NCBI GenBank assembly: GCA_027972325.1
Contig: JAPMOS010000002.1
Location: 656,001-720,000 of the forward strand
Length of the DNA stretch: 64,000 nucleotides
From: Paratrimastix pyriformis
Lineage: Eukaryota > Preaxostyla > Paratrimastigidae
Direction of reading: 5' to 3'
Under the pieces are notes generated by a model, which was not told the DNA's origin, ran no database searches, and saw only the letters and a program-made list of their open reading frames with translations. Position 1 is the stretch's first letter, and each line of letters opens with the position of its first letter. The position numbers and the translations under genes are program-made. This document shows, piece after piece, positions 1-64,000 of this stretch.

Positions 1-3000
1 AAGCAGGCCAGGAGGTGTCCAGCCGGCTGGAGGCGGCCCAGGCCAAGCTCGAGCAGACCCGGGGCGAGGCGGCCCACCTGCAGGAGCGGCTTCTGGAGGC
101 CCGCAGGCAGCTGGCCGCGGGGGAGGCCGAGGCCGAGGCGGCCCGGGCCGAGCTGCGGGGCCGCTGTGAGGCCGCGCGCAAGGAGGCCGCCGAGGAGAAG
201 CAGCGCCTCACCGAGCAGCTCGACCAGGCCCGACGCGAGGTCCGTGCGGGCCCCCCGGCTCCGCCTCCACCTCCCCGGCCTCCTCCGCCGACCGTCCCTC
301 CAGCCACGACACCACTCACCGGCACCATGGCGCGCGCACACACAAAACGCGACCCACGCGCACAGCCGGCAGATGCGCACGCACACAGCGCACCTGTCCC
401 AACTGTCCCCACTCCCTCCGCCCCCCCGCGGCACGCTCACCCGATCGCTGCTGGTGTTTTTTCTCGCCAGGGGGCCGCGGCCCTCGCCCGGGCCACGAGC
501 GAGCTGGACTCGGCCCGCGCCCAGGCGACCGTCGCCGCCCACGATGCGGCCGAGGCCCTGGCCGAGGCCCAGGCGGCCCACCGCCAACGGGTGGACGCCC
601 TCGAGGCCCAGGCAGACCAACGGGCTGCCGAGCACGCGGCCCGGGTGCGGGCCCTTGAGGACCGGATCGCCGCCTTGCAGAGCCAGGCCGCGGACCTGGA
701 CGGGGAGGGCCGCCGCACGGCTGAGCAGCATCTGCAGCTGGTGGCCCGAATCGAGGGGCAGCTGGCGCGGGCCCGGACCGAGGCGGAGCGGCGCGCGGCC
801 GAGGGCGAGGACCACCGGGCCCGGGGGCTGCTGCTCCGGGCGCAGTTGGACGCGACGACGGCCGAGCGGGACACGGCCGCGGCCGACTTGGCAAGAACGC
901 GCGCCGAGATGCAGGCGGCCATGGTCCGCACCCCACACATCCACCCACGCACCCACACACGCGCGCCACCACCCCACCTCGGGATTCGGAGTCGGAAGAC
1001 GCACAAGTTTCCTCATCATCGCCTCTTCGGGCTCGCAACACCGACACGCCCTGGGGCACTGCAGACTCAATCGGCGCACGACCAGGAGGCCCTGCGCAGC
1101 CACCTGGCGGCCACGGCCGACCAGCTGACGGCCGTCAGCGCGGACCTGAGCCAGGCCGCCCGGGAGCGGGAGCACCACCAGCAGGGCGAGGCCCACCTGG
1201 CCCAGACCGTGGCCGCCCTCGAGCGCAACCTGGCCCAGGCCCAGGACCGCGCCGCCGGCCTGCAGGCCACCCTGTGCGAGCGCGAGCACGACCTGGAGAT
1301 CGCCCGGGGGGAGGTCCGCCCCCCCTCCTTCCCTCCATCCCCCCCAGCCACGATCGGACACCTCACGCATCACGGTACTGCACGCCACGCATCATCACGG
1401 ATGATCACGCGCCACACGACCGCGCACGAGGAACAGCCCTCTCGCAGCTCGCACGACCGGTGGGGGCGATCGCGGCGTACCATTCCCTTGTGCATGCCTG
1501 TTGTGTCCCTCTTGCTGCCTGCCCTGGCTCACCCTGCGGGGTGGGTTGCGTTGCAGATCGGGGCCGCGACCGGCCAGCACGCCGACACGGAGCAGCAGCT
1601 GACCCTGGCCCGCCAGCAGCACGAGATGACCCGGGCCGCCCTCGCCGCCACCCAGGAGCAGCTCAATAAGGTCCGCTGCGGCCCTCGTTGCTCAGGGGCA
1701 CATCCACCGGGGTTGAGTGCCCCTCATCCTCAAGACCCTCGGGCACGAGCGGATCGTCCCCCTCGCAGGCCATGCCGTCATTGCTCAGGGGCACAGCCAC
1801 CGGGGTTGAGTACACCACATCCTCAAGACCCTCGGGCACGCATCCCTGCTGCATCCACCCTCCATTCACTGCCCCGCCCCTCGCCACCGGTTTTGCAGCT
1901 TCGGGGGGAGCTCGTGGCGGCCTCGCAGCAGCTCTCCGCGGCGCAGCGGGACGCCGAGGCGGCCCGGACGGCGGCCCGGACGGCGGCCCAGGAGGCGGCG
2001 GCCGAGGGGCGGCGCAGGCAGGAGGTGGCCGCCGCCGAGCAGGCCGCCCAGCAGAAGGAGCTCGCAGCGGCCAAGGAGCGCCACGCCAAGGAGGCAGCCA
2101 CCCTCCGCGCCCAGCTCGAGGCTGCCCAGCACGAGACGGTCCGCCGCCCCGCCTGCCCGTTCCGTCCCGTCCCGTCCCGTCCCGTCCCGTCCCGTCCCGT
2201 CCCGTCCCGTCCCGTCGGGGTTGCCACGAGCCTTTGTCTCTCTCCCCGTGTCCCCGCGATCTGCGATGCTCACCTCCCCCCGTGGCTCCCCGGCCCTCTT
2301 CCGCGGGCGCAGGAGCGCATCCGGGGCGAGGAGGCCAAGGCCCGCCAGCAGCTCGAGGGCTTCGACGGGCAGCTGGAGCAGCTCCGGGCCGAGCGGACCC
2401 GCCTCCGGGCCGACCTGGAGATCGAAGCCGCCAAGAGCCAGGTCAGCACAGCACCCTTCGTGATGGTGGCGGAGATGACCGGGGAGCGAAGAGTGGGAAA
2501 GAGAGTTCGCGTTTTTCCCCCCTCTCCGCTCATCCCTCGCCCCCTCACCACCGACCGCGCGCTTCGCGGGACCCGACAGACGCTTCGGCTGGGGCAGGAG
2601 GCCGCCCAGGCGCAGCTCGAGCAGGCCCAGCGGGCCGCCGAGGAGGCCGCCCAGCAGGCCGCAGGCCGCGAGCAAGACGCCGACCGGCTGCGCGAGGAGG
2701 CCGCCCAGGCCGGGGCCGCCCTGCAGCAGGAGCGCTGGGCGGGGGAGCAGCTCCAGGGCCAGCTGGCCGCCCTCCGGGACCAGGCCGCCGAGGCCACCCG
2801 GCGGGCCGACGAGGCCGAGAAACGCCTGCAGGCCGCCAGGGACGAGGCCCGGGGCCTCCAGGAACGCGGGGTCTGCTCCGCCACCCCACCACCTCCCCAC
2901 CTCCCCCCCCCCCCCCCCCCCCCCGCTCCCCGCTCCCCGCTCCCCGCTCCCCGCTCCCCGCTCCCCGCTCCCCGACAGGGATCTTCCGACTGATCGTCTT

Positions 3001-5773
3001 CGCTCACCCGGCTCATCGGCCGGCACACAGGCCCGAGCGGAGGCCACGCTGAAGTCCCTCCGTGAGCAGCACCAGGCCCTGGCCGCGGGCGCCGAGAAGC
3101 TGCAGGCCGATCAGCGCGCCCTCAAGGCGGCCCTGGCCGCGGCCAACACCGAGTGCGCCATCGCCCAGGGGGGCCTCGCCAAGGCCACCCAGGAGCTGCA
3201 GGCGTCGCAGGCCCAGTCGGCCGAGGCTCTGCAGCTGCTCGGTGCGGCGCGGGCCGAAGGGGCTGAGGTCGGTCTTCTGCCCGCCCAGCAGCTGTCCACC
3301 GACAATGGGTGGCCCGCGTTTACTCAATGGCTCCCCCCCACGCACCACTGGGCCCATCCGATTGCAGTATCGCGAGCAGAACGCGGCCGGCCAGGCCGAG
3401 TGCGCCCAGTTGCGCGGGGAGCTCGGGGCCGCCCAGGAGGAGCTGACCCAGGCCCGGACGGCCCTCGAGGCCGCGCGGACGGACTCGGCCCTGCTCAAGG
3501 AGCGCACCGGGGTTCTCCAGGGCCAACTGGCCGCCCTGCAGAAGCAGCTCGACATGCAAACGGAGGTCCGGACCCCCCCGCCCCCCCGCCCCCATCTCGC
3601 CTTCTCGTTTCCATCTGGCCTCTCTCTCTCTCCAACCCGCCCTGCCCCTGGGGACAGGTCAACAAGGCCCAGCGGGACCAGGCTCGGGCCCAATCGGAGG
3701 CCCTCCGGGGCGAGCTCCTCAGCCTGCAGGGGCAGCACGGCACCCTGAAGGGCCTCTCCACCACGGCCCAGGAGCAGCTCACGGTGGCCCGGCGCGACGC
3801 TGTCGCCGCCCGCGACCAGGCTGCTGCTGCCCAGGCCCAACTGGCCCAGGTCCGCATATATGCCCCGGGCTGTTGCTCGGCAGGGGTCGTTTGGACATCG
3901 CGTTCATCATCCCCCTGGGGTGCTGCCGACGCAGGCCAGGACCGAGGCCGCCCACCTCCAGACGCAGCTCATCCAGCTCGATGCCGAGCTCGCCAGCCTC
4001 ACCGCGGCCCTCCACGAGCGCACCGCCGAGGTGGCCGACCTCACCAACCAGCTCCAAGCAACCCGCGATGCCCTCCAGCAGACCCAGTACAGGGCGCAGA
4101 CGGATATGGAGGCGAGTGCCCAGGAGTGTGAAGGGTGGGCCATGCGAGACGAGGAATGGCGCTGCAATGCTGTCCGCGATGCGGCCACGATCGTCGCCCT
4201 CCAGGAGGCCCTCGGCGAGGGACAGAGACACCTGCGTCAGCTGGAGAAGGTCCGACTCCGAAGTTCACACCACACTCATCCTCAAACTTGACATCACCCC
4301 GCAGGAATATGAAACAACACATGACTTGTCCAACCAATCGCGAACTCAGTGGGAAGTCTGCCGAACGGAGCTGACCCTGGCCAAGCGAAACCAAGAAGAA
4401 CTGAAGGTCTGCAAACTGCCGCGCATCTGGACTCAAAATAGTGGTGGGTATATTGCCATATTATTGTGGAAGTGAGATATGTTGGCCCGGAGAGAAAAAA
4501 TGGAACTCACAGAAAAGTGAACTGAGTACAATACTGCTCTCCCCGGAGATCTTCTCAGAAACATTTCGAAAAATGCAGCGCCTTTTCTCTGTCGTTCCCG
4601 CTGTTGGCCTCTCTTTCCTCGCTCGGTTTGCCGGTCGGTCATCTTCTTTTTTAATTGGTTTTTTCCTCATCAGCGCATAATTTTTTTTGTGCTTCATTTA
4701 ATAATATTCAGGCGAGAAGTTCTACACCAAGGACCACGAGTGGGTTGATGAGTCTGGCCTTGTTGGCATTTCTGATTATGCCCAGAAGCACCTTGGCCAA
4801 ATTGTGTACGTCGACCTTCCTGAGATTGGCAAGGAAGTCGCCCAGAAGGACACTCTCACTGCCGTGGAGTCCGTGAAGGCCGCTTCGGATGTTTTCGCTC
4901 CCGTTGCCGGCACTGTTGAGAAGGTCAATGAGAAGCTGCGCGACAATGCCGGCCTTATCAACAAGGCTGCCGAGACTGATGGCTGGATCGCCAAGATCTC
5001 CATCAAGGACACTGCTGAGTTCGGCACCCTCATGAACGCCGAGAAGTACGCCGATTTCCTCAAGACCCAGCATTAAGATGGCGGCGTCAACCTGCTGTTC
5101 TGCGGTTGATTTTTTGTATAAAACCCCTTTCATCAGGGTATGTTGTTCTTATATTCTCTTTCGGTGTAACGACTTGCATACCAGCCCGTCCAAATACATG
5201 GAAACCTAAATTCCCTCCTTTTTTTTTCTATTTTTGTTTGTGGCGGGATTCCGACCAAGCTCACTTCAGGAACACATTACAGGCCCAAATTCCGTCTTCA
5301 TAAAACAAATTTAACAAGAAATTTTGCATGATGGTCTCATATTGCAGGTCCAGCTTCAGCAAGCCAACGCCCAGCTCCAAGCGCGCAGTGCCCGGTGCAT
5401 TGATCTGAGCACCCAACTCGGCGCGCTCCAGGCCGCTCTGCACCGTGCACAGGAAGAGCTCACCTCCCGCCAGCATGAGGTCTGCTTCGCCACGGCACCC
5501 CCTCCCAATTCACTGGGTGGCGCGTAGCTTTCCGCCTCCAGGGAGAGGTTGGTGAATGACGAGGGATGGTTGGAAGAGACCCGGGAGGCCTTGCGGTGGT
5601 ACGACCAGCGGGTCGGGGCTCTGGTCGGTCGCCTGGAGCGGGCCGATGCCGAGCGGGTCGTGTGCGAGGCCGAGCTGGCCGGGGCACTTGAGACTCTCGC
5701 ACAGCGTGAGGTCTGCCGTCCTCCGCCACCTCGTTGTACACCCCCATCCCCCCCCCCTCCCCATCCCCCCCAT

Positions 5774-5804
<31 letters not shown>

Positions 5805-8311
5805 TTCCTCTCCTCCTCTCATCCATCCTCCTCCTCCGTCCTCCTCTTCTCCATCCTCCTCTTCTCGTCGAACAACTTGCAGTCGGAGCTCTTAGCGCAG
5901 CGTGCCGAGTTAGTCGTGCTCCAGGAACGACTTGGCTCTTTCCAGCGCGATCTGGTGAAGTCTGTGCCCACTTCGCGGGGGGCAAAAGAAGCCTGTTTTC
6001 CCCGGTGTCCCACACCCGCACCCCGTCGTTTCCTGTCCTCTGCAGCAAATCGGGTGCCCACGACGAGGCGGCCCAGGCTGCGGACCAATGGATGCAGCGC
6101 CATCGGGAGGCCGCGCAGACCCTAGCCGAGACCCGCACCCAGCTGGCCCAGGCCCGGGCCCGCCTCGACGAGTTGGCCAGCCGTCAAGGAGTCGCCCAGG
6201 CCGAGTCGGCTGCCCTACGGGCCGAGCTGGCCCAGGTCCGGCCTCGCTCCGCCTCCCCCCGCATATACCACCAGCAAGCAATGCAAATTTTCATGTTCGA
6301 ACATCCCCTTTTCCTTTTTGCATATTTTGCACGCGTGGGCGACTCAGGCCAAGGAGCAGCTGATCCGGGCCACAGAACAGGGCCTAACGGGTCGCACCGA
6401 GTGCGCCCGGCTGCGGGAGCGGGCCGCCCTGGCCGAGCGGCGCCTCGAGGAGGCCGACAAGAGCCTCGCCGCGGCCCGAGAACGGGCCGCCCAGCAGGAG
6501 GCCGCCACCCGGGAGGAGCGCGACCACGCGCGGGACGAGGCCGCACGTCTGGCCTCCCAGCTGGGGGCTCTGCAGGGCCGGTGCGAGGCCATGCGGGGCA
6601 CCGTCACCCAGGAGATTCAGACCGCCGCCCAGCAGCAGGTCGGCATCCCCCCCCTCCATGTCCCCTTGGGCACGTGCCGCAGGGGAAGTCGGAGGCACTG
6701 ACGTGGCGATCGCTGTGTTCCTTCGCTCACTGCGCGCGCGCACACACATCTCCCCCATTTTTTTGCTCCTCTCGGCCTGAGCAGCTCGAGGCCCAGCGGC
6801 GCGAGGCGGCCAGCAAACTGGAGGCCGCCAACCGCCAGTACGCCGAAGCGCGGGCCCAGTGCGAGGACCTGCAGAGGTCCCTGGTGGAAGCCGAGCGGGT
6901 CCGCATCCCCCTGGCATCACCATCCCCTTTGTGCTTCATCGTTCACTTTTGCGGCCTTCTCGAGTGTTCGCACGGCCCTCGTTGTGTCTTCTTGTCTTGC
7001 GCTTCATCATTCGCTCTTGTGTGTGCGTCGGCGCGTGTGTGCGGGGCTGACCGACAGAGCTGTCATGCCCAGGTCGAGGAGATCCGGGCACAGCTCGCCC
7101 AGGCCCAGCAGGACAACGGCCAGCTCAAGGTCGCCGCCCAGAGGCAGGTCCGTGCCGCACCACACCCCTCATCCCCATGATGCCGCCCCCATTCCTCGCT
7201 GACCCCCCCCCCCCCCCCCCCCCCCGTGTCGGTTCCGGGACAGACGGTCGCGAGCGATGAGCTTAAGGAGCGGGTCAAGGAGTGGTCCCGGGACTTCGTG
7301 GCCACCCACAACCGGGACGCAGCCCTGCTCTCGACCGCCTCGGCGACGGCCATCCTGGGGGCCGAGTACCTCCTCGTCCTGGTGGCCCAGTCCGCCCGGG
7401 CGGCCGAACTCACTGCCGAGTACATCCGGGCCAGGGCCCAGGTCCGTCCCCGCACCGCCTCCCCCGTGAATTGCTGACGGACAATCGCGCGGCCTGAGCG
7501 GAAGGACGCCCGCGAAGACTCGCGTGGTTGTCACGACAGCACACGGTTTCTCTCTTCTCTCCCTGCTCCTGCCCGGGTGGTTGTGTGTGCGCGTCTGCAT
7601 GCGGGGCTTGGCCAGGCCTCAGGGGGATGTCGACTCACTCCCTGCCTCTGCCCGTGTGGATGGATATGCTGTGCTGGTGGCCAGGCCTCGGGGGAGGATG
7701 TCGACTGGGAGCGGACGGGCATCCCCGAGGGCATGGGCGGCCGCCCCGAGGCCCAGGCCCTTGCCGACGCCCAGGCCGAGGCCGCCGAGGCCGCCGAGGC
7801 TGCCCGGGCAGAGGCCGACCGACCGCCCCTGACCGAGGCCGAGCGGCTGGAGGCCATCCTGCTGGGCGGCATGGGGATGGCCAGGCGGCCCGGACCCGAC
7901 CCGGCCGGGGCGGACGAGGAGGAGCGCGAGGAGGAGCCGACCCCGGGTGAGACCCCCGAACAGGCAGAGAAGTCTGTGCGTGGGCGTGGGCGTGTGGGCG
8001 TGGGTGGCAGTTGGGTGCGCGTGAGCGTGCGATGCGTCCTTGCTGGAGGCTGGAGGCGATGCGGATTGGCTTTTTCCTCATGCGCTCGTTCCTTCCTTCG
8101 CCGTATCCGCCTGTGCTGCTTCCTGCTGCCACCCGTCGCCCCGTCGCCACGTCGCCCCAACAACGGCGCCGTCTGTTTCCCCTCCTCCCTCCCTCCCTCC
8201 CTCCCTCCCCCCGCCCTCCTGCTCCTCCTGCTCTCCTCTCCTCCTCCTGCTCCTTCTCCTGCTCCTTCTCCTGCCCTTCTCCTTCTTCTTCTTCTTCTCC
8301 TCCTCCTCCTC

Positions 8312-8343
<32 letters not shown>

Positions 8344-9600
8344 TCCTCCTCCTCCTCCTCCCCCTCCCCCTCACCATCCAGGGCATCATCCTCATTGGCA
8401 CCCCTCTTTCGATTCTTCCCTCCTCTGCGGCCATCCCCTTCCGCCGCCCAAAGACCCGCCGACGGCGGCGTCAGAAGGAGTCCGCCGGTGCGGCCGCCAT
8501 CGCGGCGTCCTTTTGGGGCTCCCGGGGCCGCGGCCCCAGCCGGGTCTCCGTCCAGGTCGGGGCCATGACCCTGGGCGGCGGCTCCCGCCCCGGTGGGTCT
8601 GCCACGCTGGTGGGCAGCGGGGACGCGGCCCTGGACGCCATCCTGGGCGCCGAACTCAAGGGGCCGCAGGGTTCGCCCACCAGGCGGCCGGCAAGACAAG
8701 CGCCGAGACGGGCAGACTGCGCAGGCTCCTCGACCAGGTCCGCCATCACACCTCCCGTTGTCTCCATCTCAACATTGTCCCTCTTCCTTCTGCTTTCTGT
8801 CTTTGCGTCGCCCACCCGGGGTCCAGGTGCGGATGTTGATGGAGATGACCCCGGCCATGCCCACGCCCTCCCTCGGCCCCGTGGCTGCTCCGCCGAGTTC
8901 CCCGCCCGCCGCCCCGCCGTCCTCCGTGTTGTCCATCTTCGGGTCCCCCTTCGCCCGCCAGCAAACCCTTCAGCCCCTGCCCGCCTTGGCCCCAGCTGAC
9001 CCCACCGGCAGCAGCAGCACCTCTCCCTTGCCGGGGTCTCGTCCCAGCCCCGTCCCTCCTCCGTCCCCGTCGATGGCCCGATCGCCCCTGCTGCTCGCCT
9101 CCGCCACTCGCGCCGCCACCGGCCCGCTGTCACCCTCTCCCACCCGGCCGTCGGCTTTCCCCGCGCGGTCGGCGGAGGGACCGGGGCGGAAGCCGAGTCG
9201 ATCGACATCCCCCCGTCGCTGGCCGCCCTCCCCTCCGCTCGTCAGAGTGCCGACATTCCCCCCGTCATCATCCCCGTCCCGCCCCCCTCGTCGGTCTTCG
9301 CCATCGCCAGCCCCCTGCGCCGCCCGCCCCAGCCGCCCCCCCCAGCTGACCCCATCGGCACCCACCACCACTGTCCACCCCCGGGTCCATGCCGGCCTGG
9401 CCTCCACCACCTCCTGCCACCCGGTCTCCCGCCCCTCTCCTTGCCTCCGCTGCCGGCCGGTCCCCCCCTCTCCGCCCTCACAGCCGCTGCTCCACCCCCG
9501 CCCAGGCCTCCCCCTCCGGGCTCCGCCCGCCCTCCCGGCCGGTCCCCCGCCCCCAGCCCCCTCCTTCCTTCCATTCTCGGGCCCCTCCATTCCCCCCTCC
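1..9600 (+). CDS. Giant coiled-coil protein, 5' truncated, C-terminal end unresolved
   Basis: The gene is open at the left edge. Exons supported by phase-0 joins and continuous heptads: <1..239, 471..923, 1065..1313, 1557..1670, 1899..2138, 2313..2441, 2598..2870, 3031..3267, 3368..3565, 3658..3849, 3935..4249, 4305..4406, 5348..5479, 5546..5710, 5883..5959, 6046..6235, 6348..6638, 6785..6898, 7073..7147, 7244..7441, 7685..7971 and about 8454..8737. The product is Ala/Glu/Gln/Arg-rich alpha-helical coil resembling myosin tails, golgins or centrosomal scaffolds; no named domain is visible, so no function is assigned. It ends in a low-complexity Pro/Ser tail after 8.8 kb, where several frames compete. 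The frame slips by one base at a GGG run near 8.67 kb. The intron 4407..5347 contains the whole gcvH gene. I am confident of the coiled coil and not of every exon edge. Confidence 0.75.
1688..1840. repeat. 93-bp tandem unit (1.6 copies) inside an intron
   Basis: Two near-identical units begin at 1688 and 1781, exactly 93 bp apart; the second is partial. Read on the minus strand they are open and encode a peptide containing VPEGLED and VPLSN. A near-identical single copy lies in sense orientation inside an exon of the surface-protein gene at about 36040..36129. Confidence 0.85.
2164..2215. repeat. CCCGT pentamer microsatellite
   Basis: About ten copies of CCCGT lie in the coiled-coil gene intron 2139..2312. 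Confidence 0.9.
2884..2977. repeat. Poly-C tract and CGCTCCC heptamer array
   Basis: A C run is followed by six or more copies of a CGCTCCC heptamer within the intron between exons ending at 2870 and starting at 3031. Confidence 0.85.
4573..5076 (+). CDS. gcvH: Glycine cleavage system H protein (lipoyl carrier)
   Basis: Two exons, 4573..4633 and 4712..5076, give 141 residues. H protein shuttles the aminomethyl group between the P, T and L proteins of glycine cleavage on a lipoyl arm; it acts in mitochondria or derived organelles. Residues 1-20 (MQRLFSVVPAVGLSFLARFA) are a short Arg-containing, hydrophobic presequence-like stretch, and the mature domain starts at about residue 22. The lipoylation motif ESVKAASD places the target lysine at residue 76. 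The intron starts GTCGGT and ends TTCAG, and phase 1 restores a glycine codon. Codon use is milder in GC than that of the host gene, with many T-ending codons, as expected for a strongly expressed gene. The gene lies in sense orientation in an intron of the coiled-coil gene. Splicing argues against bacterial contamination. Identity is very secure; organelle targeting is inferred. Confidence 0.95.
8170..8375. repeat. CTC/CTT-rich simple repeat
   Basis: A long pyrimidine-only stretch of CTC, CTT and CCC units lies between coiled-coil gene exons ending near 7971 and starting near 8454. It produces many spurious Leu/Pro/Ser ORFs. Confidence 0.8.
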
Positions 9601-9755
9601 CCCCCCCCCCCCCCCCCCCCCTCCCCCTCCCCCCCCCCCCCCCCCCCTCCCTCCTCCCTTCCTTCCTTCCCCTGTTCCTTCCCTTTTCTTTGAATCCCTC
9701 TCTCCCGCTGCTTCGTTGTGCGTGTTTGTTCTCTTGTGGATATTTGGTGCACAGG

Positions 9756-9765
9756 AAAAAAAAAA
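9756..9765 (-). terminator. RNA polymerase III terminator of the tRNA
   Basis: Ten A on the plus strand (T10 on the transcript strand) begin two bases after the tRNA discriminator base, a typical Pol III stop. Confidence 0.9.
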
Positions 9766-9767
9766 GC

Positions 9768-9840
9768 TGCTCGATGCAGGGATCGAACCTGCGACCGTTG
9801 CCTTATTAGAGCAACGCTCTACCGACTGAGCTAATCGAGC
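9768..9840 (-). tRNA. tRNA-Ile (anticodon AAT)
   Basis: On the minus strand a 73-nt cloverleaf folds fully: acceptor stem GCTCGAT paired with ATCGAGC and discriminator A, D stem GCTC/GAGC, anticodon stem TTGCT/GGCAA with loop CTAATAA, and T stem GCAGG/CCTGC with loop TTCGATC. The anticodon AAT (read as IAU) occupies 9805..9807. The A box (TAGCTCAGTCGG) and B box (GGTTCGATCC) are present and there is no intron. Confidence 0.95.
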
Positions 9841-9928
9841 TATGAAGTTTCACCTGGAATGACGTTGTGCCGAAATCTTCACCACGACATCATCAACGAA
9901 TAGATCATACTTTTCACGCACAGCCTTA

Positions 9929-10853: not shown

Positions 10854-11027
10854 AGCGGGTGGAAACTCGGGGGGTGAGAGGCAGTCCCCCCGCAAAATCA
10901 ACAGCCTGGGCGGTGTTCAAAAGAAGAGTGGAAGGACACCGCAAGGAGGAAGTGCCAGAATCCCTACCAGAGGAAGTTTGGTCACACTGTCTCTGTGGAG
11001 GCTCGGCCGATGAAAATACGTTGGGGA

Positions 11028-16563: not shown

Positions 16564-18578
16564 CTAGGCGTCGAAGATGACATGCAGCTCCTCGGCCCCC
16601 GCGTCGAGGCTGGGCGAGGTGTACACCACATCCTGCCCGGGCGGCGGGTGCGAGAGGGGAGAGAAGGAGGCAGGAAGAATGGATGTGAGGAAGAACAGAA
16701 GGGAGGGCGGGGCGGGGCGGGCGCGTGGGGGCGTGCGGACCAGCAGGGCGGGTGTGGACCGGGCGAGCTCCTGCAGGGTGGCGCAGGCCCGCGGGCAGCA
16801 GGCGTCGAAGGCCACCAGGTCCTCTGGACATGAGGCCCCAAAAATCCACAGAGACAGAGACGGCCACAGACGCACAGATGCAGACACATCGAAAGGCCGC
16901 CGAATGAACGGAAAAAATGACTCGGGGCTGGGGGGGGGGGGGGGGGGGGTGGCAGAGGAAGCGCGGTGGGTGCAGCCCAGCCCTCCTCCCTCCTCCTCCC
17001 TCCCCCTCCCTCCCCCCCCCCCCCCCCCCCCCCCCGTGTGCTCTCCATTGGAGGCGGGTGCGGACTGTCGCTGAGCATCCCCGAGGGGACGCCCTGGCGC
17101 CGGCCCAGCAGCTGCCGCAGGGCGGCCGGGGCGGGCTGCTTGAGGTAGCGGGTCTTCAGGACGGCCACACCCTGCCGGGCCAGCTGCTCGGCCACCGCGA
17201 ACCCGTGCTCCCCGCTGGCGCCCGCCAGGGCCAGCACCAGGATGTGCTGCCCAGAAGACAAGCAGATCCGGCGAGTGCGGTGGACGGGGGAATGGGACGC
17301 GGCGTGAGAGAATGCAGCCGGCGAGCGACAGGCGCCAACCACCCAGGGCGCGCATCGAGGAACGAAGAGGGATGGAGGAGGGGCGGGAGACCTCGTCGGC
17401 GGGTGGTGGGCAGGGGCCCCACGAGACGGGGATCGCCTGGCCGCCCGACTTGGGGGCCTCCGCCGGCAGCTGGGCCAAGTCCACCAGCGGCGCCTCGGCC
17501 TGCGCGCCAGCAGCAGCCAGGAGGACCGTGGTGGGACCACCGAAGGCGAGCAGGGGAGGGGCAGGGTGGGATCGCGACGTGTTCCCTGGGGGTCAGACCG
17601 GGGGCAGGCAGGTGGCGTGGCCGGGGGCCGGGGTGAAGTCGAAGGTGTCCCACCAGGTATTGTCGAAGGGCTGCAACCCAGCCCCGGCCATCTGGTCTGT
17701 GGGACCCAACCGCCCCAAGCAGCACGGCGAAGGTGGTGATGGGTGATACGGCGACGGGGTGATGGGGAGGGTGATAGTGGGCGATGCGGGGTGCTGGGGT
17801 GCTGGTGCTGCTGATGGGTGCTGGCGGCGATACCCCGACCCATCTGGTGCGAATGTGTTCGGGGGGGGCGCAGACCGATGAACTGGGGGTAGGTGACATC
17901 GATGCAGCGGAAGGTGATCCGGTCGCTCGCCTCGATGGACGGCTATTCCCGGGTCAGTTACCCACAGGGCGGAGTCGAAGGAATGACCTTGGTCATGCAA
18001 TAGAGCCGGAACTCACAATCCGTCACATTCCGCGTCCTGTCGTCGGAGTGGGACGGTGAAGAGGTGCGGTCACTCGCCGCGATCACAGACCTGAGCTGCT
18101 GGCAGGCGACAATAATGCGGCAGTTGGCACTGTCGCGCACGAAAACGCTGAAAAGTCAAAACGGGTTGGTGATACCCAGAGCAGCAGATGAAACGCCAAC
18201 CTTCCCGAGGTGGGCCCAAGGAAGATGGTGCAATTCGTACATCCGTCGCAGAAGACAGTGTCCATTCGATCGAAAAGATAAATATTGCAATCGCGGCAAT
18301 CTGCAATGTTGAACCGCTGCCCATTGATCGAGCTACACAGAGGCAAACCGATCAGACAGAAAATGGGACGGGTGAGCCGACCCAGGAAGTTTGATGACTG
18401 TCTGCCCCACCTGATTCTTGGCCTCAAAGTTGGAGGGATCTGGACGATTCACTTCCCAGCTGTACTTCTTGCGGGGTGCACCAGTGGATGCCGTTGATCC
18501 TGCACCAGGTGCCGAACCCCCCAGAACTGCGCGCTGCTCCGCAGGTGAAGGACGTGGCTTGCTCTGAGAACAACCCAT
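16564..18578 (-). CDS. RP2 homologue (TBCC domain, ARL3 GAP)
   Basis: Ten exons on the minus strand: 18382..18578, 18201..18332, 18091..18147, 17988..18036, 17876..17942, 17599..17696, 17392..17499, 17066..17246, 16741..16823 and 16564..16632. They encode 346 residues, against 350 in human RP2. The N-terminus MGCSQSK carries the Gly2 myristoylation and Cys3 palmitoylation pattern of RP2. The TBCC beta-helix follows: KYSWE, INGQRFNIADC, CNIYLFD, CTNCTIFLGP and IIVACQQLR. The last keeps the Gln and Arg used by human RP2 (Arg118) to stimulate ARL3 GTPase, with the Arg codon split by an intron. Then come PFDNTWWDTFDFTP and a weaker NDK-like C-terminal domain. Family role: releases lipidated cargo into cilia through ARL3. 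Introns run 45-242 nt; one donor is GTTGGC, the rest start GTC. Confidence 0.95.
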
Positions 18579-18967: not shown

Positions 18968-18998
<31 letters not shown>

Positions 18999-25535: not shown

Positions 25536-25572
<37 letters not shown>

Positions 25573-43635: not shown

Positions 43636-43675
<40 letters not shown>

Positions 43676-45268: not shown

Positions 45269-45303
<35 letters not shown>

Positions 45304-55300: not shown

Positions 55301-55801
55301 CCGTCCAGGGTCAGTGTGGCGGGGACGTTCGTGGCCCAGGATCCGATTTTTTGCATCACCGAGTCCATCGATGCAGGGATCATTGGTTCAGGTGCAGCTT
55401 TGGGAGAGGGACGAGGCGGGGTTCGCCGCGGGGAGATGTGAGGAGGAAGGACGGGGGGCGATGCCGGTGATTGAGTGGTCGTGTTGGTGTCCGGGGCCGC
55501 GGTGACGGTAGGAGCAATTTCCAAAGCAGACGACTAATAACAGTTGTGTGGTAAATCAGGCACTCACATGACCAATCCAGACATCTTCCTCGATCCGGTT
55601 TCGCTTCACAACATGGTCGACGGTTTGGTCCGTTTGCTCTACAAAAGGGGCGCGTGTTGCTACTGTGACCAAGGTGCCAGTGTGGGACAGACCGGACGGT
55701 GTGACAAGGTCCTCCGCAGGTAATGGCTCAGCGCTCCGGGTGCGCTTGTGAAATGGGCTCAAGGCAGCAATGCCTTTCCAAACTTTTCCCAAAAACGACA
55801 T
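49380..55801 (-). CDS. FG-repeat nucleoporin, nuclear-basket type (Nup153/Nup1-like)
   Basis: Exons on the minus strand: 55583..55801, 54544..55533, 54294..54449, 52762..54174, 52408..52608, 52058..52316, 51789..51955, 50310..51728, 49559..50190 and 49380..49456, about 1840 residues. The N-terminus (MSFLGKVWKGIAALSPF) looks like a membrane-binding amphipathic helix followed by basic residues, as in Nup1, Nup60 and Nup153. A short motif ETAKKILESLERV resembles one shared by plant Nup136/Nup1 and Nup153. Then come acidic coils, SPFALP repeats and dozens of NPFG repeats; the C-terminal tail is basic (GRKIAKARTKKP). FG repeats form the permeability barrier and bind transport receptors. The exon 49559..50190 is one base out of phase at C-rich runs near 49.83 kb, probably a sequence error. 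Class is secure; orthology to a given nucleoporin is not. Confidence 0.82.
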
Positions 55802-55931
55802 TTGAAGTATCGATAAAGTGAGATTCCGGAGTGAAAGCGAGCAAGAGGCCCGGAAAAAACCCTTTTGCAAACGCCTTCTACTCCAGGAGCAACCAGGCTA
55901 TCCCGCAGGCTCTTCTGCGCTCAAATCAGAA
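55802..55931. promoter_or_regulatory. Probable bidirectional promoter, nucleoporin / CDC123 genes
   Basis: 130 bp separate two divergent start codons. The stretch is AT-richer than either gene body. Confidence 0.4.
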
Positions 55932-58004
55932 ATGTCCTCTCCGATTCGAATTGAAGAGTGGGACGATACGGATCTCAGAATCCCTCCATCTGTTCCAGAT
56001 GGAATTCGTGTTCGTTTAAGGTCTCCTGTCTTTGAACGCTCGCGACCTCCTATTTTTGAACATTAGGCAGGCTCTCTTTCAGTTCGCATACTCTGTAGGG
56101 AGGGTCGGTAATTTTTTTTTTTTTTTGAATTTCTTGAATTTTGCTCTTGCCAAACCCGGAATTTAGTGGTATCCCTTCATTACGGAATTCACTTTCCCCA
56201 CCGAATTGGTGAGCGTGAGTGTCGATGAAGCGAAAGCTATTGTGATTGAAGGCCGCAGATTGCGCGGTCTGGTCGACACGCATGATCTTCATGTCGCCAT
56301 CTTTCTATAGACCTTCCCTGCAGCATTGCTTCCTCGATGACACCAGATCAGGTTGCGAGCGCCCTGGGGAACCTTTCCCGCCGAATCTCTGCAGCCATTA
56401 CCAGACTCGGCGGTTCCTCTGGAGTCTTTATCAAACTGAATTCCCGCAGCGCGAAAGGTCTGCACGTCCCGGTCCCGCAGCTCTCACCCCACACGGTTCC
56501 GCAGATGTTGTCTTCGAGGAATTCCACGAGACCCTGTGGAACGCCATGCAAGCCGAGCTTCACCACACGGACTTGAGCCAATACATGCCCTCGCACAGCT
56601 GCCCCGTTCCCGTCTGTGTGCTCTCGCCCGGCCCATCTCGGCCCTCACACCGGCCGCCGCTTTCCTGAGGACAGAAGCTGCGCGAGCTTGAGGAGACCCT
56701 AGCGGGGCTCTTCATTCGGCAAGCGCAGGCCTCGATGCGTGTTTCCGACCCCGGTGCAGCCATCGATCAGCTTCTGCGCAGCGGCCGCATCTATATGGAT
56801 CTGTCCAAGTGCCTCGAGTCTGTGCCCCTCCTGGTGGCTTGTCCGAGAAGCAAGCTGTTCATCTCCGGCTGGATCGTAGGTGTGTGGACCACGGATTGCC
56901 CTTCGAGGCGGAGATCGCTGTCCGGGCGTGGGACCCGACCCTGCTGCCCAGCATGGAGATGCGCTGCTACGTCAGGAACAAGCACCTCACCGCCATCGCC
57001 CAGGTCGGCACCGCGCTCCTCTTCGAGCCACGCTTCACGTTGTTACACGTTGTACGCCACCCCCCCCCCCCCCCCCCCGCCAGTACTACGATTCGGCGCC
57101 GCTCGCCTGGCTGACCCGCGGTGGCCCCGCGGCCGTGACCGCCATCCGGGAAGCCCTCCAAGAGAGGATTCGCCACTTCGTGGAGGATGAGGTGGCGCCC
57201 AAGGTCCGCCCCCGCCATCCCCAGCCACCTTCCCCCGCTGCCATCACCCGCCTCCATTCATCCCTGCCTCTCCCACTCATTCCCCGACTTCCGCCTCCCC
57301 CGCCGACATCCCCCTCACCTGCGCGCCCCGCATCCTTCCCACCCTGTTCCACAGCTGCCCCACAAGAGCTTCGTGGTGGACGTCATCTGCAGACATCCCC
57401 CCGAGTGGGAGCAGACCCCGCTGGGCACCGAGGAGATCCTGCCGCCCGCCCGGGTGCAGGAGCGCGTCAGCACCATCCGGGGCGAGGGCCCATGCCCCAT
57501 GCGAATGGGCGTTGTCGAGATCAACCCGTTCCACAAGGGCGCCGCCTCCCTCTTCGCGGTCCGTGTCGCGGCTTTTCCGATCGGCTCCTGGCTTCATCTT
57601 CTTTGATTTTGATTTCTCGTTGGCAGTGGCGCGGCCCCGATCGCGATATTCTCCTGCACGGCTTCGAGATGCGGCTTATCAATCCCTCGCCCCGAATGCT
57701 GACCCCGCAGCTCTGGGCCACGCCCCTGGCCCACCTGCCGGCCGCCTTTGCCACGCGGCTTCAAGAGTGGGTGACTGCCCAATGCATGGAACGGTGCCCC
57801 GATCAGTTTTATCGCATCGTACGTGCCCACCGGTGCCACTGGGCCCAAGCGCGACCCCAGGAGGCAATGCCCTACCTGGCCCCGGGATGGCGCGAGCCTC
57901 GGCACCGTTCGGGGACCTGGTGGGTCGTGGTCGGGGGCGCTGCCCTCGTGGGATTGGTCTCCCTTGGCATGGTGGCCGCGAGTCGGGTGCGGCGCTTGTT
58001 GTGA
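55932..58004 (+). CDS. CDC123/D123 homologue with C-terminal membrane anchor
   Basis: Nine exons: 55932..56009, 56167..56266, 56311..56457, 56505..56611, 56675..56817, 56880..57003, 57084..57203, 57355..57558 and 57627..58004, giving 466 residues. CDC123 is an ATP-grasp-fold chaperone that assembles translation initiation factor eIF2. Family landmarks in order: WYPFITEFTFP, ITRLGGSSGVFIKLN, LECVDHGLPFEAEIAVRAW, MEMRCYVRNKHLTAIAQ, YYDS, SFVVDV and MGVVEINPFHKGAASLF. The usual RD pair between the Ser-Gln and Tyr-Tyr motifs is missing. Unlike known CDC123, the protein extends past the fold and ends in a membrane helix (TWWVVVGGAALVGLVSLGMV) with a basic tip, so it is probably tail-anchored. The first junction (donor GTTCGT at 56010) is the least certain. 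Homology is strong; ATP binding and eIF2 chaperoning are inferred. Confidence 0.88.
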
Positions 58005-58136
58005 GAACCCGATTGTACTTGTAACATTTGGATTTCCGGTATTTTTTTTGGGGTGAAATTTTGGGGGCTTCGCGCCGTGTCCTTAACCGGGGAGTAGTGA
58101 CTTATAAAAAAGGAAGGTTCTCGATTTTTGGAATCT

Positions 58137-60718
58137 ATGAGTCATAGCTTCGACCCTGTCCCCAATGATCCCCAACTTCAGCTTCTTCTGAGCCACTCCG
58201 ACCGGAAGGGCCGCAAGATCGAATTGATGAAGGACAACGATACTGGAAATATTGTGGTCATGAAAACATGTTCTATTTCTGCAACAGATGAACCAGCTCG
58301 TATTTTGGAGAGGGTCAAGGAATTGTCCCAGCTCGAGAACGAATCTATCGTCCGATGTATGGAAGCCTCTCTCAACCCGCCGGCCGGAGAAGGCGCCCTC
58401 GCTTCGATTACAATTGTCCTGGATTATTCTCATCTGGGGAACTTGGATAAATATGTGAATAACCTGAGTCACTCACGCCGGACCAATGCCGCGCAGGCCT
58501 TGCTTGAGGGCATCGATTTTCTTGAGGAGTACCAGGTTTTCGGTTCAATCAAGGTCTGAAACTTAGTGCATCTTCATCCATTCACATCATTTATTCCCGA
58601 AATAGCCGTCCAATGTCCTCTTCCAAAAAGTCGTTCCTCCCCCGGCGGGTGAGGTGACCGAGGCCTCCGCAGGAGGACGCCCAGATGTCCCTGCCGAGTT
58701 GGTGCTCCCACAACTGCGACTGGACCCGTGGATGGCCCTGGTTGCCCCGGCCACCTTGTGTGACTTCTCAGCCCCTGAGCTCGCCTCCCAGCCCCGGGCC
58801 CGCCCTGATTCCTTTAGCGATCGCTTCGCGGCGGGCCTCATCCTCGCCTGCATCTACGGCGACATGACCAGCGCCGAGTTGCATCGTGTGCTGGACAAGC
58901 AGCCCGCCTGGCGGCTGGACTACGAGCGACGTTCAACTCTGATTCGGGCCCGGCTGGCGGCCCGGTCGGTGCGCCAGGAAGTTCTGGAGGGGATTCTGGA
59001 ACTGCTCGCTCAGGAGCCCACTTCGCGGCCCTCGGCGCTCTCTCTGCTTGAGCGCTGGTGGGGCGGGGGAAGGCGAAGCACGACTCCCGTCCATGGTCTG
59101 TCCTCCTCTCCTCTTCTTTGATGACCGAGTCAACCGCCATCGATCCGTAGGGCCCGAGGCCGCCCCCACCCTGGAGCAGCTCGCCCAGTCTTTTGGAGCT
59201 CTGCCTCCGTCCCCAGATAGTCCCTGCGTCTCACTCTGCGCTGCATTGGACCACCTCTCGGGCAGCCCCGAGATGATGCCCATGGCCCCGCGCCAGGGGG
59301 CGGCCTGGGTCTCCATCCTCAAGGCGCCTGTCACCGCCGCTTCCCCCTACGTCATGGAACGCCTGGGAACTGCCCTGGCCCGGATGGGGGTTCACCTGAC
59401 CAACCGGACGGTGCTGGGTCACGCCCACGTGGCCGAGGCTCTCCTGGCTCTCCTCAAAGTCCCGCTGACCCCCGAAAACACGGTCGCCATGCGGGAGATT
59501 CTCCATGCTGTGGCCATCCTGGGCCTGGACAGCCCCTACACCCAGTCGGCCTTCGCCAAGGGTCGCATCGAGGAGCCTCTGATGGCCCTTCTCGCGAGCC
59601 CCATCTTTGGGGCCGACCCGGCCCTGGCCGAGCAGCTCGGCGCCGCCCTGGGCTCATTGGCTCAGTGCCCCCTCCTGCGCGATGCAATCGGCCATCCCCA
59701 GGTGGCCACGGCCCTGGTGGGAGTCCTGCGGGGCCCGCTCTACCCGCGCTACGTGGACACTGTTCGCCAATGCTGCCGGGCCGTGGGAGCACTGTGCGTG
59801 GTGCACATCCGAAACCAGACCATTTTCCGCCAGGCGGGCGTGGTGGGTGCCCTGATCGGCTTGCTGCTGGTCGAAGCCGCCAGCCAGGTGCCCGCACTAT
59901 CCCTGGACGAGGAGCTGGCCCGCTGTCTGGGCAACTGCTGCACCGAGAACCGCAGCGCCCAGAATGACCTGCTCCGGGAAGGAGCCGTCCGCGCCTTGTT
60001 CGCCCTGACCCGCAAGCTGATCGAGAGCATGCGGATTCGCGGGACGACGGCCGAGGCCAAGTGCATCGAGTGGGTCTTCTGGTGCTGCAACCGACTGGCC
60101 GAGGGCAACACGGCCGCCCAGCGGGCCTTCCTCGAGGCCTCCGCAACCGAGCTGATGGGGGCTGCTCTGCATATCCCGGCCGTTGTCACCAGTCCCGGCG
60201 CGGCCGAGGTCTGAACAGACCTTCTCTAGTTCCGGCTCCTGAACAGTCCCCCCAAGGAGATCTGCAGGCTGGTGAGCTGCTTGTGCGGCTGCACAGCCCT
60301 GGAGGGTCTGGTTGCGGCAGTGGGCCCCCAAAAGGAGCTCTTCGAAGGCCTGACGGCCCTCCTTCGGGCTGCCGGGGCCCAGACGGTGGCCTCGCTGGGT
60401 GAGCAACTCTGCGTGGCCTTGGAGGCCATGCTGACCCACTGCGGGCCGGCCGCCCTGCCCCAACTCGGACTGACCCCCAACCTGTGCACCAACCTGGCTG
60501 CGTTCGCCAAGGCCCATGGCCTGAAGCCCCCGCCGGGGGACGGTCTCACCCGCTGCGGGGTCCGTGTCCACCAGATGGCGCCCCCACTGGCCGCAGGGCA
60601 GACGCTGGCCGAGCGGGTGCACGAGCTGGCCTGTCTGCTCGCGGCAGCCCAGGGGGGCAAGGAGGCCCTCAAGGAGGCCGGCCTGGGCGCCTTCCTGGGG
60701 GAGTCGCCCCCGGCCTAG
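58137..60718 (+). CDS. Pseudokinase with C-terminal ARM/HEAT-like repeats
   Basis: Exons 58137..58553, 58606..59095, 59151..60208 and about 60257..60718, roughly 808 residues. The N-terminal 300 residues follow a protein-kinase fold: a beta-3 lysine (IVVMKTC), a hinge (ITIVLDYSHLGNL), a catalytic-loop remnant where SIKPSNVLF stands but the HRD triad is absent, SAPEL for the APE motif, and an end helix (PTSRPSALSLLERW). No DFG is seen, so it is likely catalytically dead. From residue 305 the chain is helical repeats (VAEALLALLKVPL, VDTVRQCCRAVGALC) similar to armadillo or HEAT. The last intron can be read as 21 nt (exon 4 from 60230) or 48 nt (from 60257); both keep frame, and an in-frame TGA demands removal. 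A scaffold role is inferred. Confidence 0.8.
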
Positions 60719-61328
60719 CCGGCGGCCGGATGAGGGAACCTCGTTGCCCTGCTGTTGTTGATGTTGATGCTGCGTCCTGTTTTTGTCTGTTGAGTTCATT
60801 CATTATTTTCGAGGCTTCTTCGGCCTGTCTCAGGCCCCCTGGTTTCCCATTTTTTTCTCCCCGTTTGTTATACGGGTTTTGTTCAGCCGGTGGCGGGGTC
60901 TCTCCGCCCGCCCGGCGTTTCCGAGAGCCTGTGCGTGTGCGTGCGCATGTGCGTGTCCGATGCACAGCCAGGTCGGATGGCGTTTCCTTTGTTCTCCTCT
61001 GTAAAGCTTCGTGTCCCTCATTGTACGTCTGTTTTGTAAATCTTGCCGCGGTCCAGTCCGTGCGCTCTCCTTTGCGTGCGGACATTTCCCCGTTTCTCCA
61101 TCTCCGAATATCATCCGGTTTCTGTGGTGGTTTCTGTGGTGGTTTCTGTGGTGGTTTCTGTGGTGGTTTCTGTGGTGGTTTCTGTGGTGGTTTCTGTGGT
61201 GGTTTCTGTGGTGGTTTCTTTTTCTCCGTTCGGGTTTCCATTGTCTTTGATGCGGCGGCAGGGCGGGGAGGAAGATCGCGTCGCACCTCCACTCTCCTGT
61301 TTGCTCTCCACCCATCTGAGCCGCTGAT
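60719..61328. other. Convergent 3' region with repeat
   Basis: About 610 bp between converging genes, T-rich at first, then a 12-bp tandem array. No gene was found. Confidence 0.6.
61118..61220. repeat. 12-bp tandem repeat (TTTCTGTGGTGG)
   Basis: About 8.5 nearly perfect copies in the spacer between the pseudokinase and DCUN1-type genes. Confidence 0.9.
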
Positions 61329-62944
61329 TTACTGGGCGGGTGCCGGGGCGGCGGGCTGGGGCGGGTGCCTGATCCACTCGACGTAGTCGTCGATGCAGTT
61401 GGGCCAGGCCCCGGACGCGTCGTACTGGGCGAAGTCCGTCCCGAACTGGCCGTCCTTGTCGGCCATGAAGAAGCGCCGGATCTGGTCCCACGTGTCCCGC
61501 GTGATGTTCTTGTACTCCTTCGAGGATTCCTGGTGTGTGTGTGTGTGTGTGGGGGTGACCAAACAATGCTGAGGTGGTTCTGCCAGGAAGCATGGGGAGG
61601 AGAAGGAGAAGGAGGAGAAGGAGGAGAAGGAGGAGAAGGAGGAGAAGGAGGAGAAGGAGGAGAAGGAGAGAAGGAGGAGAAGGAGGAGAAGGAGGAGAAG
61701 GAGGAGAAGGAGGAGAAGGAGAAGGAGAAGAAGGAGGAGAAGGAGAAGAAGGAGAAGGAGAGAAGGAGAGAAGGAGGAGAAGGAGGAGAAGGAGGAGAAG
61801 GAGAAGGAGAAGAAGGAGGAGAAGGAGAAGAAGGAAGGCCAGAAGGGATCCTGAGGGGCGTCGGGATCTGGACCCGGAGGGGGAAGAAGGCGGGGGAGAG
61901 CGGAAGGGAGCGGAGGATGGGAATGGTGGTGGGGCCGTGCGGGGCGGACCGAGGATGGGGGAGCGCTTGCCGCACGAGAGCCTATGGGCGAACATGTAGA
62001 AGTCCTGGAAGCTCCCCGGGCCGGCGGGCGGCAGCGAGCCCCGGGTGCCGCCCTGCTGCACGTCCCGCCGCAGCTCGGCCATCTTGGGGCGGAGCTGGGA
62101 CAGGCTGGTCACGCTGCGCCAACCGCATGGGGCGGGCAGGCGGGGCGAGAGGAGGTGCGAGTGAGTGCTCCACGGCCGAGATGGTAAGGGGGAAAAAAGG
62201 GGGAGATGGCCTCGCGCAAGAAGGCATGGCGCGGGTGGTGACGGAGCCGGGGCGTGGGCGACGGACTCCATGGCCCGGAGGCCATCGACGAACTCCTCCT
62301 CGGTCCACTCGCACATCTCCTTGCAGTGGCACCGCCAGGCCACCACCAGCATGACCACATCGTCGGGCTCCACGCCCAGCTCCTGGCACATCTGCTCCGT
62401 CCCGGCGATGGAGATCATCGGCTCGTTGGGGTCCTTCAGCCGCATGAACTCGCGCTTTGCGGCCTGGCGCGCCTCGCCCTCCTAAAGGGTATGCCGCCAC
62501 CGGTGTGAGCTGGTGGGTCGTCAACCTGAAAATCCAGACCGCGGGATCGTCAATCTCAAACTTAGAAAAGTCGAAAGAGCTCGTTTCTTCGACAGCGAAG
62601 ACCCGGCCCTTGGTGACGTCGTTGCCCGATCCGTGGGACATTTTGCATTCGGTCTTGTCACCACCGCGGTTGGGGTAGGAGACCTCAAAACCGCGAGGTG
62701 TGATAAGAAACTCAATTGTCACATTCCCCTCGGGAAGGCCCCCCGACGCACGGGTCTCATTGACCCAACGCCCGCGCGATTGGCAGCTCAACACGACGCA
62801 ATTCTGAGAAAAGTTGGCACGGCAAAGGCAATGACCCTGAGGGTCGCGGAGCTGCAGCTGCAACGAGAAGTAGTATCCGGTGACGTTCCCGAAAACCTTG
62901 ATCTTCATCCCCGGCTTGGCATTGAGCTGCTTCTGCATTTGCAT
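61329..62944 (-). CDS. Galectin-like domain fused to DCUN1-type (DCN1-like) neddylation domain
   Basis: Exons on the minus strand: 62540..62944, 62267..62481, about 61950..62113, and 61329..61529; the link between the last two is unresolved. Residues 1-110 resemble a galectin: KPGMKIKVFGNVTG, ANFSQNCVVLSC, GRWVNETR and EFLITPRGFEVSYP. The WxNExR pattern is kept while the HxNPR pattern is degenerate. The next exon joins in phase 0 and starts the DCUN1 fold: MCQELGVEPDDVVMLVVAW, EWTEEEFVDGLRAM and LRPKMAELRRDV. It closes with NITRDTWDQIRRFF and GAWPNCIDDYVEWI, the C-terminal cullin-binding signature. DCUN1 proteins promote NEDD8 transfer to cullins. Part of the central DCUN1 helices is not visible. 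The galectin-DCUN1 join rests on splice phase and lack of any stop or start between them. Confidence 0.78.
61590..61848. repeat. GGAGAA-type purine microsatellite
   Basis: About 260 bp of GAG, AAG and GAGGAGAAG units in the intron before the last DCUN1 exon. It sits where the missing part of the domain would be expected. Confidence 0.9.
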
Positions 62945-63142
62945 TTTTGTTTTTTTGCTGCAAAGTAACCGATGAACCCGAGCAGGCGGAAAGAAAAATC
63001 AATGGTCGGCGGGGATGAGAAAAGTGCACGGACGCTGGGGTGAACTAACGTAACCCAGGGGAATCCTCAACTCGACCTCGAAGAAAGTCGTCGGGTGTGT
63101 TTGAGTCCTCTCCACTTTCCGCCTCTCGACTTTTTTGTTCCC
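62945..63142. promoter_or_regulatory. Probable bidirectional promoter, galectin-DCUN1 / ABCA genes
   Basis: 198 bp between divergent ATGs. An in-frame acceptor-like TTTGCAG lies just upstream of the minus-strand ATG, so an extra 5' exon there cannot be excluded. Confidence 0.35.
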
Positions 63143-63787
63143 ATGGCTCCTTCCAAATCTCAAACTTTGAGAAGGCAATTTATTGAGCTTCTCCGCAAGA
63201 ATTGGTTTGTGAAAGTGCGGAACAAGCGGACCTTCTGGGGAGAAATTTTTTTCCCGATCTATTCGTTTGCGCTGTTCATTCTCATTCAAAATACCACACC
63301 GAGGGAAGTCGTTCCGGCCGTTCGTGAGTATCCTGGCCTCGATGTCTTTCCCCTAAGCCCTATGCTCTGCTACGTCGCTTTGGGAACACCTCCTCCCTGC
63401 ACGATGCTAGCTTATTCTCCAAATACGACAGATGTCACAAATTTCATCCATGAACTCGAGATCGAGCAGCACCTAGTCGGGTTCACAAAGGGGTTCGCCT
63501 CCTCTGCAGCCGTCATTCAGCATTTGTGGGATCATCCCCAAACTGTCTTTGGAGGTCGGCCCTTTCCTTCTTCGCCCCCGACACCACTCTCGCAAATGTA
63601 GCTGTTGATATCAAGAGTCTCGATCCATTTGAATACACTCTGCGCACAAACACGACCCTCCTCAACGCGGTGATGGGGACTTCAGGCAACTTTTCGTCGT
63701 TCCTGATCTCCGGGTACACCAGCTTCCAACAAGCCCTGGATCAAGCCTTCAGTCTGTCTCCAACCGACCCCATGATCGCTCACTTCT

Positions 63788-63832
<45 letters not shown>

Positions 63833-63928
63833 CAGTCAACCTCCGCCTGCGTGCTGCTGGATCCGCGGGGAAGGTGGCCTTTGCGGAAACGGCCCAGCGC
63901 TTCCCTGCCCACAAGTCGGCCAACATCA
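63143..63928 (+). CDS. ABCA-type ABC transporter, N-terminal part (runs off the window)
   Basis: Exons 63143..63554, 63602..63751 and 63836..63928; the next donor (GTCCGT at 63929) opens an intron that leaves the window. The start FIELLRKNWFVKVRNKRTFW, then EIFFPIYSFALFILI, is the typical first cytoplasmic segment and first membrane helix of ABCA proteins. The later text (PFEYTLRTNTTL, SGYTSFQQALDQAF) matches the large loop between helices 1 and 2, where ABCA proteins show YxIR and a LQxxID-like motif. Nucleotide-binding domains are not yet reached. ABCA proteins move lipids across membranes; the substrate here is unknown. A CTCCTG hexamer repeat fills the intron 63752..63835. Confidence 0.85.
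63789..63833. repeat. CTCCTG hexamer microsatellite
   Basis: Seven or more copies end directly at the 3' splice site of the ABCA intron and serve as its pyrimidine tract. Confidence 0.85.
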
Positions 63929-64000
63929 GTCCGTCTTCCTTCCCCCATACAGCCCCCCCCCCCCCCCCGCCTCCCAATTCCCAACCCTTCCCGCCCCAGC

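Follow-up and report, generated by a model that had tools for sequence, protein, structure and literature searches.

GTCYG Donor Sites and a Complementary U1 snRNA 5' End in the Genome of Paratrimastix pyriformis

The word ACUUACC at the 5' end of the U1 small nuclear RNA (snRNA), which pairs with GTRAGT donor splice sites, is near-universal: a yeast survey reports it from 227 of 230 species and from nine of ten outgroups, these being every species in which a U1 was found (PMC10581693), and the divergent U1 of Giardia is described as keeping ACUUAC (PMC3510501). Here we report on the donor sites and the U1 genes of the single-celled, free-living eukaryote Paratrimastix pyriformis (Preaxostyla, Metamonada), whose genome includes a stretch of 64,000 nucleotides (positions 656001-720000 of contig C112; hereafter the window) for which an earlier note had claimed introns beginning with GTCYG instead of GTRAGT, and had predicted a U1 carrying CRGACCU where others have UUACCU. 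The GTCYG pattern is confirmed, in conserved genes outside the window as well as within it, and CAGACCU is found in all eight U1 genes detected, three of them displayed as alignments. With a probability of roughly 0.93, we read this as a rewriting of the U1/donor code in which U1 selects the donors by the altered pairing. P. pyriformis would then be a natural case of a matched change of donor and U1 in a normally almost invariant part of the splicing machinery; such a switch is unexpected, since thousands of donors and a multicopy RNA must change together.

In the Saccharomycotina, a switch of the donor from +4 A to +4 U is described as having accompanied the loss of METTL16, and the authors note that an A at U1 base 5 could compensate for +4 U (PMC10581693). 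The P. pyriformis donor likewise goes to U at +4; unlike in the yeasts of that survey, both U1 and +3 are altered, and a METTL16-like gene (G000:C332, L072; matches in several pieces) and an SNRNP27 gene (G000:C9, L073) are kept. Because these genes are present, the METTL16 link fails to explain the P. pyriformis donors, and loss of METTL16 or SNRNP27K was rejected as a cause of the +4 pyrimidine, both families being matched in the genome. The oxymonad Streblomastix strix, from the same phylum, is described as having GT-AG introns with +3 A, +4 U and +5 G (PMC1501061); it shares the latter two with P. pyriformis, whereas its +3 A, as in most eukaryotes, points to an origin of +3 C on the side of Paratrimastix. 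For Giardia, donors of the form (G/A/C)UAUGUU are given (PMC3510501); its U1 resembles that of P. pyriformis in coming from a metamonad and in having a 5' end complementary to the donors, and differs in the retained ACUUAC. The diplonemid S. specki is also described as having an altered U1 5' end, in an additional, C-rich U1 gene that accompanies a normal U1; unlike in P. pyriformis, the change as reported there is not matched by a genome-wide replacement of donors (PMC12621601). The two U1 versions of Fritillaria are reported to have identical 5' ends (PMC13326754), and in two Amoebophrya strains U1 is given as not detected (PMC7789003). Other switches of U1 may stand recorded as "U1 not found". 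We found no earlier report of this U1/donor switch in open-licence papers, preprints and supplementary files lying outside the scope of the search, and the main text of the P. pyriformis genome paper brings up introns and splicing only in gene prediction and in its references, with no mention of the spliceosome or of snRNAs (PMC10703272). In this lineage, gene prediction built on GTRAGT and U1 searches built on ACUUACC will perform badly.

Donors in Nine Conserved Genes

The assembly searched comprises 56,060,509 bases in 495 contigs. It should be noted that its contigs do not correspond one to one with those of the published genome, for which 56,627,582 bases, 633 scaffolds and 60.94% G+C are given (PMC10703272). 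Nine genes were aligned to human PRPF8 and CCT1-8 with a purpose-written program for spliced alignment of protein to DNA, in which every GT may be a donor, every AG may be an acceptor, and positions +3 to +6 are unweighted; with acceptors fixed as AG, the counts bear on donors alone. A distant CCT-like gene (L071, G000:C51:69001-72500; best score 164 against the eight human CCTs) was dropped before counting, together with its six introns (+3 C in three, G in two and A in one). The nine genes gave 91 introns; 73 had at least four of eleven identical residues on each side and were kept, and 18 with weak flanks were dropped.

Among these 73 anchored introns, 55 have GTCYG donors and none has a GTRAG donor, with any GT allowed. 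Position +3 is C in 60, T in 10, A in three and G in none; +4 is T in 35, C in 33, G in four and A in one; +5 is G in 67; +6 is T in 38, C in 27, G in six and A in two; and 61 introns are preceded by G at -1. Over all 91 introns, +3 is C in 74, T in 14, A in three and G in none. The earlier note had placed no intron confidently with A or G at +3; A does occur there, in three of the 73. Two introns with +3 A, in different CCT genes (L063 and L066), share their first ten letters, GTATGCACAT.

A GC-rich and pyrimidine-rich genome could by itself put C after GT, in which case U1 would be irrelevant: intron interiors are 36.6% C, the C at +4 and +6 tracks that background, and G+C ranges over 58-74% in 4-kb steps of the window. 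The same genes contain 1,418 unused GTs, at which the following base is A in 7.9%, C in 33.7%, G in 35.7% and T in 22.7%, and GTCNG makes up 7.0%. Against these values the binomial probability is 2e-17 for the +3 C and 1e-14 for the missing +3 G of the real donors, and it is 7e-10 for their +4 purines (5 of 73, background 38.4%). Composition alone was rejected for +3, tested against both the unused GTs and the intron interiors, and U1 bears a matching change (see below); we regard composition as a very improbable explanation.

Protein alignment may also slide a junction at repeated residues, and the real donors could then be GTRAG at shifted sites; the two strands of the window together contain 24 copies of GTGAGT. 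Limiting the donors to those with A or G at +3, however, costs between 355 and 1,421 units of alignment score in each of the nine genes, whereas a limit to C or T at +3 costs 0-50 per gene. In PRPF8 (18 introns; 1,815 of 2,343 columns identical), +3 is C in 17 of the 18 introns, and when any dinucleotide may serve as donor GTCNG is chosen in 17 of 19, the remaining two lying at the poorly alignable N-terminus. The best 120 of 3,036 matches included no Prp8 from P. pyriformis, and the PRPF8 introns therefore rest on the human alignment. Ten junctions of the window are fixed without mismatch by deposited proteins, and GTAAGT does not occur in the window. Shifted GTRAG donors, which the earlier note had named as one of two outcomes that would overturn its pattern, were thus not seen, and we consider them scarcely credible.

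U1 Genes and Other Spliceosomal RNAs

A covariance-model search for U1 (Rfam RF00003), in which 41 of 992 first-look candidates were scored, found eight genes, all spanning model positions 1-166 of 166 with E values of 3.7e-13 to 2.0e-10; no Rfam family fits them better than RF00003. In all eight copies the 5' end is AUACAGACCUUG, compared with AUACUUACCUGG in the model: AG replaces UU at bases 5-6, U replaces G at base 11, and bases 3-9 read ACAGACC. The stem-loops, the GAUCAC of loop I, the first four bases AUAC, the ACCU, the register and the contacts with GT, -1 G and +5 G are the same as in the canonical U1, the donor differing from GTRAGT in its +3/+4 pyrimidines. The reverse complement of U1 bases 1-12 is CAAGGTCTGTAT, that is, CAAG/GTCTGTAT (slashes mark the boundary of exon and intron), and AUACAGACCUUG is the reverse complement of CAAG/GUCUGUAU.

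A promoter-like element, CCCATAA, precedes the first A by 59-60 bases in all eight U1 genes and stands at 58-60 bases in the eight U2 genes read; it is present upstream of all 27 snRNA loci read (U1 8, U6 4, U5 7, U2 8). This spacing supports both the functionality of the U1 genes and the placement of its 5' end at the A of AUACAGACC. By structure, pairing register, promoter and complementarity we class the RNA as U1, the usual letters ACUUACC being replaced in every copy. Genes for the U1C zinc finger and for LUC7 are present in the genome. A U1 with the canonical TT, which together with ordinary donors elsewhere was the other outcome that the earlier note had named, was found neither with the covariance model (41 of 992 candidates scored) nor in a whole-genome search for the pattern ATACNNACCT followed by GATCA at 12-26 bases, whose 16 matches are the eight U1 genes and eight sequences that are not U1-like. 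The new U1 form was not found in a scan of viral contigs.

U6 contains AUACAGAGA in four of four copies, and its ACAGAGA box, which the earlier note had proposed to check, is unchanged. The U5 loop is GCCUUUUAC in seven of seven copies, and U2 has GUGUAGUA in the eight copies read, of ten matches. With GT donors and these usual U2, U5 and U6 recognition elements, the introns appear to be ordinary U2-type introns. The donors could instead belong to U12-type (minor) introns or to another splicing system, and a U12-like match (G000:C432:103343-103517, minus strand) scores 44.9 bits, below the cut-off of 53; a minor spliceosome may be present in the genome. U12-type donors carry the motif RTATCCTT. 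GTATCC, however, is found in none of the 73 donor hexamers (AT-AC introns lay outside the search), the major-type U1, U2, U5 and U6 are each multicopy, and the U1 fits the donors; as an account of the GTCYG introns, a minor-type system has next to no likelihood.

Pairing of the Donors with U1 and U6

Elsewhere, bases 5-6 of U1 are two (pseudo)uridines opposite the +4/+3 purines of GURAGU. The simplest reading of the P. pyriformis sequences is that this arrangement is inverted, with the purines A5 and G6 facing the +4/+3 pyrimidines of GUCYG. G6 would form a G-C pair with +3 C and a G-U pair with +3 T, and purines at +3 would clash; A5 would pair with +4 U and seemingly tolerate +4 C; and C9, C8, A7, C4 and A3 would keep their usual partners, -1 G, +1 G, +2 U, +5 G and +6 U, respectively. 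The major (U2-type) spliceosome would be kept, with the U1/5'-splice-site code rewritten in both partners, and the donor would then be handed to an unchanged U6.

Over the 73 anchored donors, the computed duplex energy averages -8.85 kcal/mol with this U1 compared with -4.54 for the canonical end, pairing is better with this U1 in 66, and the number of Watson-Crick pairs over nine positions averages 5.97 compared with 4.49. When the 16 possible base combinations at U1 5-6 are ranked on the donors, AG comes second and UU 15th. These values lend support to the U1-donor interpretation of the earlier note, and its alternative, a lesser reliance on U1, is not needed.

Several observations weigh against this interpretation. 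All eight U1 scores (50.8-60.2 bits) lie below the Rfam cut-off of 69.5; A stands at +3 in about 4% of the donors (3 of 73); seven of the 73 pair better with the canonical U1; and GG at U1 5-6 would suit the donors better than AG does. The frequent +4 C (33 of 73) is unpaired with A5. It does not clearly exceed the intron background (p 0.08), whereas +4 T does (p 2e-5), and selection may thus favor T alone, with C tolerated. The change of U1 base 11 from G to U brings no computed gain (-8.85 vs. -8.91), and its reading as a match to -3 A was dropped on that ground. The +7 A, at 15% compared with 17.6% in intron interiors, gives no visible pairing with U1 base 2. All of the evidence on U1 and on the donors, moreover, comes from genomic DNA and protein alignments.

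Bases 1-7 of this U1, AUACAGA, are identical to bases 37-43 of U6, whereas the canonical U1 shares AUAC alone; it is exactly the two changed U1 bases that erase the difference. The best donor, GUCUGUAU, is therefore complementary to both RNAs, and its computed pairing with U6 is -6.9, compared with -1.5 for GUAAGUAU; because this word is now shared, U6 may favor the same donor as U1. It seems likely that the two substitutions made the U1 end a copy of AUACAGA in U6, so that the donor is read twice by one anticode, by U1 first and by U6 second, without the usual compromise between the two RNAs at +3/+4. We hold this double reading to be less secure than the replacement of the code, because the mean computed pairing of the 73 real donors with the U6 box is no stronger than -2.36 kcal/mol, close to that of GUAUGUAU (-2.4), which is a further point on the opposing side.

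The same likeness could also have arisen from the side of U6: GUCUGU may have evolved as the complement of the unchanged ACAGA box, with U1 following or now secondary and U6 binding mainly setting the preference. The identity of the two words and the computed U6 preference for one donor over the other would fit this account, as would the GTATG donors described for Streblomastix (PMC1501061) and a +4 U that already suits U6. The low mean pairing of the real donors with U6 argues against it, as does the prevalent -1 G, a feature of the U1 or the U5 side, and a U6-driven donor would not require a change in U1. U6 is also ordinary here, and GTRAG is the donor of most eukaryotes that share this U6. 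We regard a U6-driven origin as unlikely and prefer selection of the donors by U1. From one genome, the shared word can be read as a cause of the change, as its consequence or as an accident, and the word makes the effect of U1-U6 likeness on the hand-over of the donor a testable question.

A possible order of events would begin with GTATG donors, followed by a change of U1 base 5 to A and then of base 6 to G together with +3 C; the two GTATG donors among the 73 would under this order be remnants. Possible intermediates are these and a few GTTTG donors within P. pyriformis itself, and the GTATG reported from the oxymonad (PMC1501061).

Introns and Other Features of the Window

Two proteins deposited for P. 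pyriformis align to the window without mismatch: glycine cleavage H protein (P0001, all 141 residues; the exon from 4711, with 121 residues, is 100% identical to it) and XRP2 (P0121, all 346 residues). Their ten introns (table 1) agree with the pattern that the earlier note had drawn from the window: +3 is C in nine and T in one; +4 is T in four, G in three, C in two and A in one; and +5 is G in eight, two lacking it. All nine XRP2 junctions are unchanged when any dinucleotide may serve as donor. The deposited XRP2 was used instead of human RP2, whose alignment is sound to about residue 190 and gives false introns beyond, and CDC123 was left uncounted, with a poor alignment to its reference (score 141). 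According to the genome paper, the gene models stem from a retrained predictor with RNA-seq intron hints; the deposited models could in this way carry a learned GTCYG, and the training set is described as curated with mapped transcripts (PMC10703272).

Table 1. Introns of the window placed with deposited P. pyriformis proteins.
Intron	Position	Strand	Donor	Protein fitted	Remarks
H protein intron	4634..4711	+	GTCGGT	P0001	Acceptor CAG; coding part 4573-5076
XRP2 intron 1	18333..18381	-	GTCGGC	P0121	
XRP2 intron 2	18148..18200	-	GTTGGC	P0121	+3 T
XRP2 intron 3	18037..18090	-	GTCTGT	P0121	Complete U1 match
XRP2 intron 4	17943..17987	-	GTCATT	P0121	+4 A, +5 T
XRP2 intron 5	17697..17875	-	GTCTGC	P0121	
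XRP2 intron 6	17500..17598	-	GTCTGA	P0121	
XRP2 intron 7	17247..17391	-	GTCTCC	P0121	+5 C
XRP2 intron 8	16824..17065	-	GTCCGC	P0121	
XRP2 intron 9	16633..16740	-	GTCCGC	P0121	

A gene parser with a coding model and no donor preference beyond GT, applied to each strand separately, called 147 introns on the two strands, with +3 C in 90, G in 35, T in 17 and A in five; GTCNG was found in 66, the commonest pentamers being GTCCG (36) and GTCTG (15). At 5,208 unused genic GTs of the window, +3 is C in 35.0%. The parser is imprecise, with 10 of 16 called PRPF8 donors exact, and since it also parses the strands apart, part of its +3 G fraction must consist of misplaced or false calls. Words counted over the window give a mixed picture: AG/GTCCG occurs 33 times against 12.9 expected (2.55x) and AG/GTCTG 17 times against 9.9 (1.72x), G/GTCCG 77 times against 69.7 (1.11x), and AG/GTGAG 14 times against 9.8 (1.43x); the highest word is G/GTTGG (78 against 45.9, 1.7x), and G/GTAAG occurs once against 8.9 expected (0.11x).

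The H protein gene, on the plus strand, seems to be nested in an intron of a coiled-coil gene on the same strand. As read by eye, the coiled-coil gene begins before position 1, one of its exons ends at ctgaag/GTCTGC at 4407, and the next exon follows ttgcag at 5347 (plus strand). Another of its introns contains a (CCCGT)n tandem repeat (2160-2215, plus strand), and long runs of C are present in others, for example near 2905 and 5770. A transfer RNA gene at 9768-9840 (minus strand, 70.1 bits) is the sole match to any Rfam family over its cut-off within the window.

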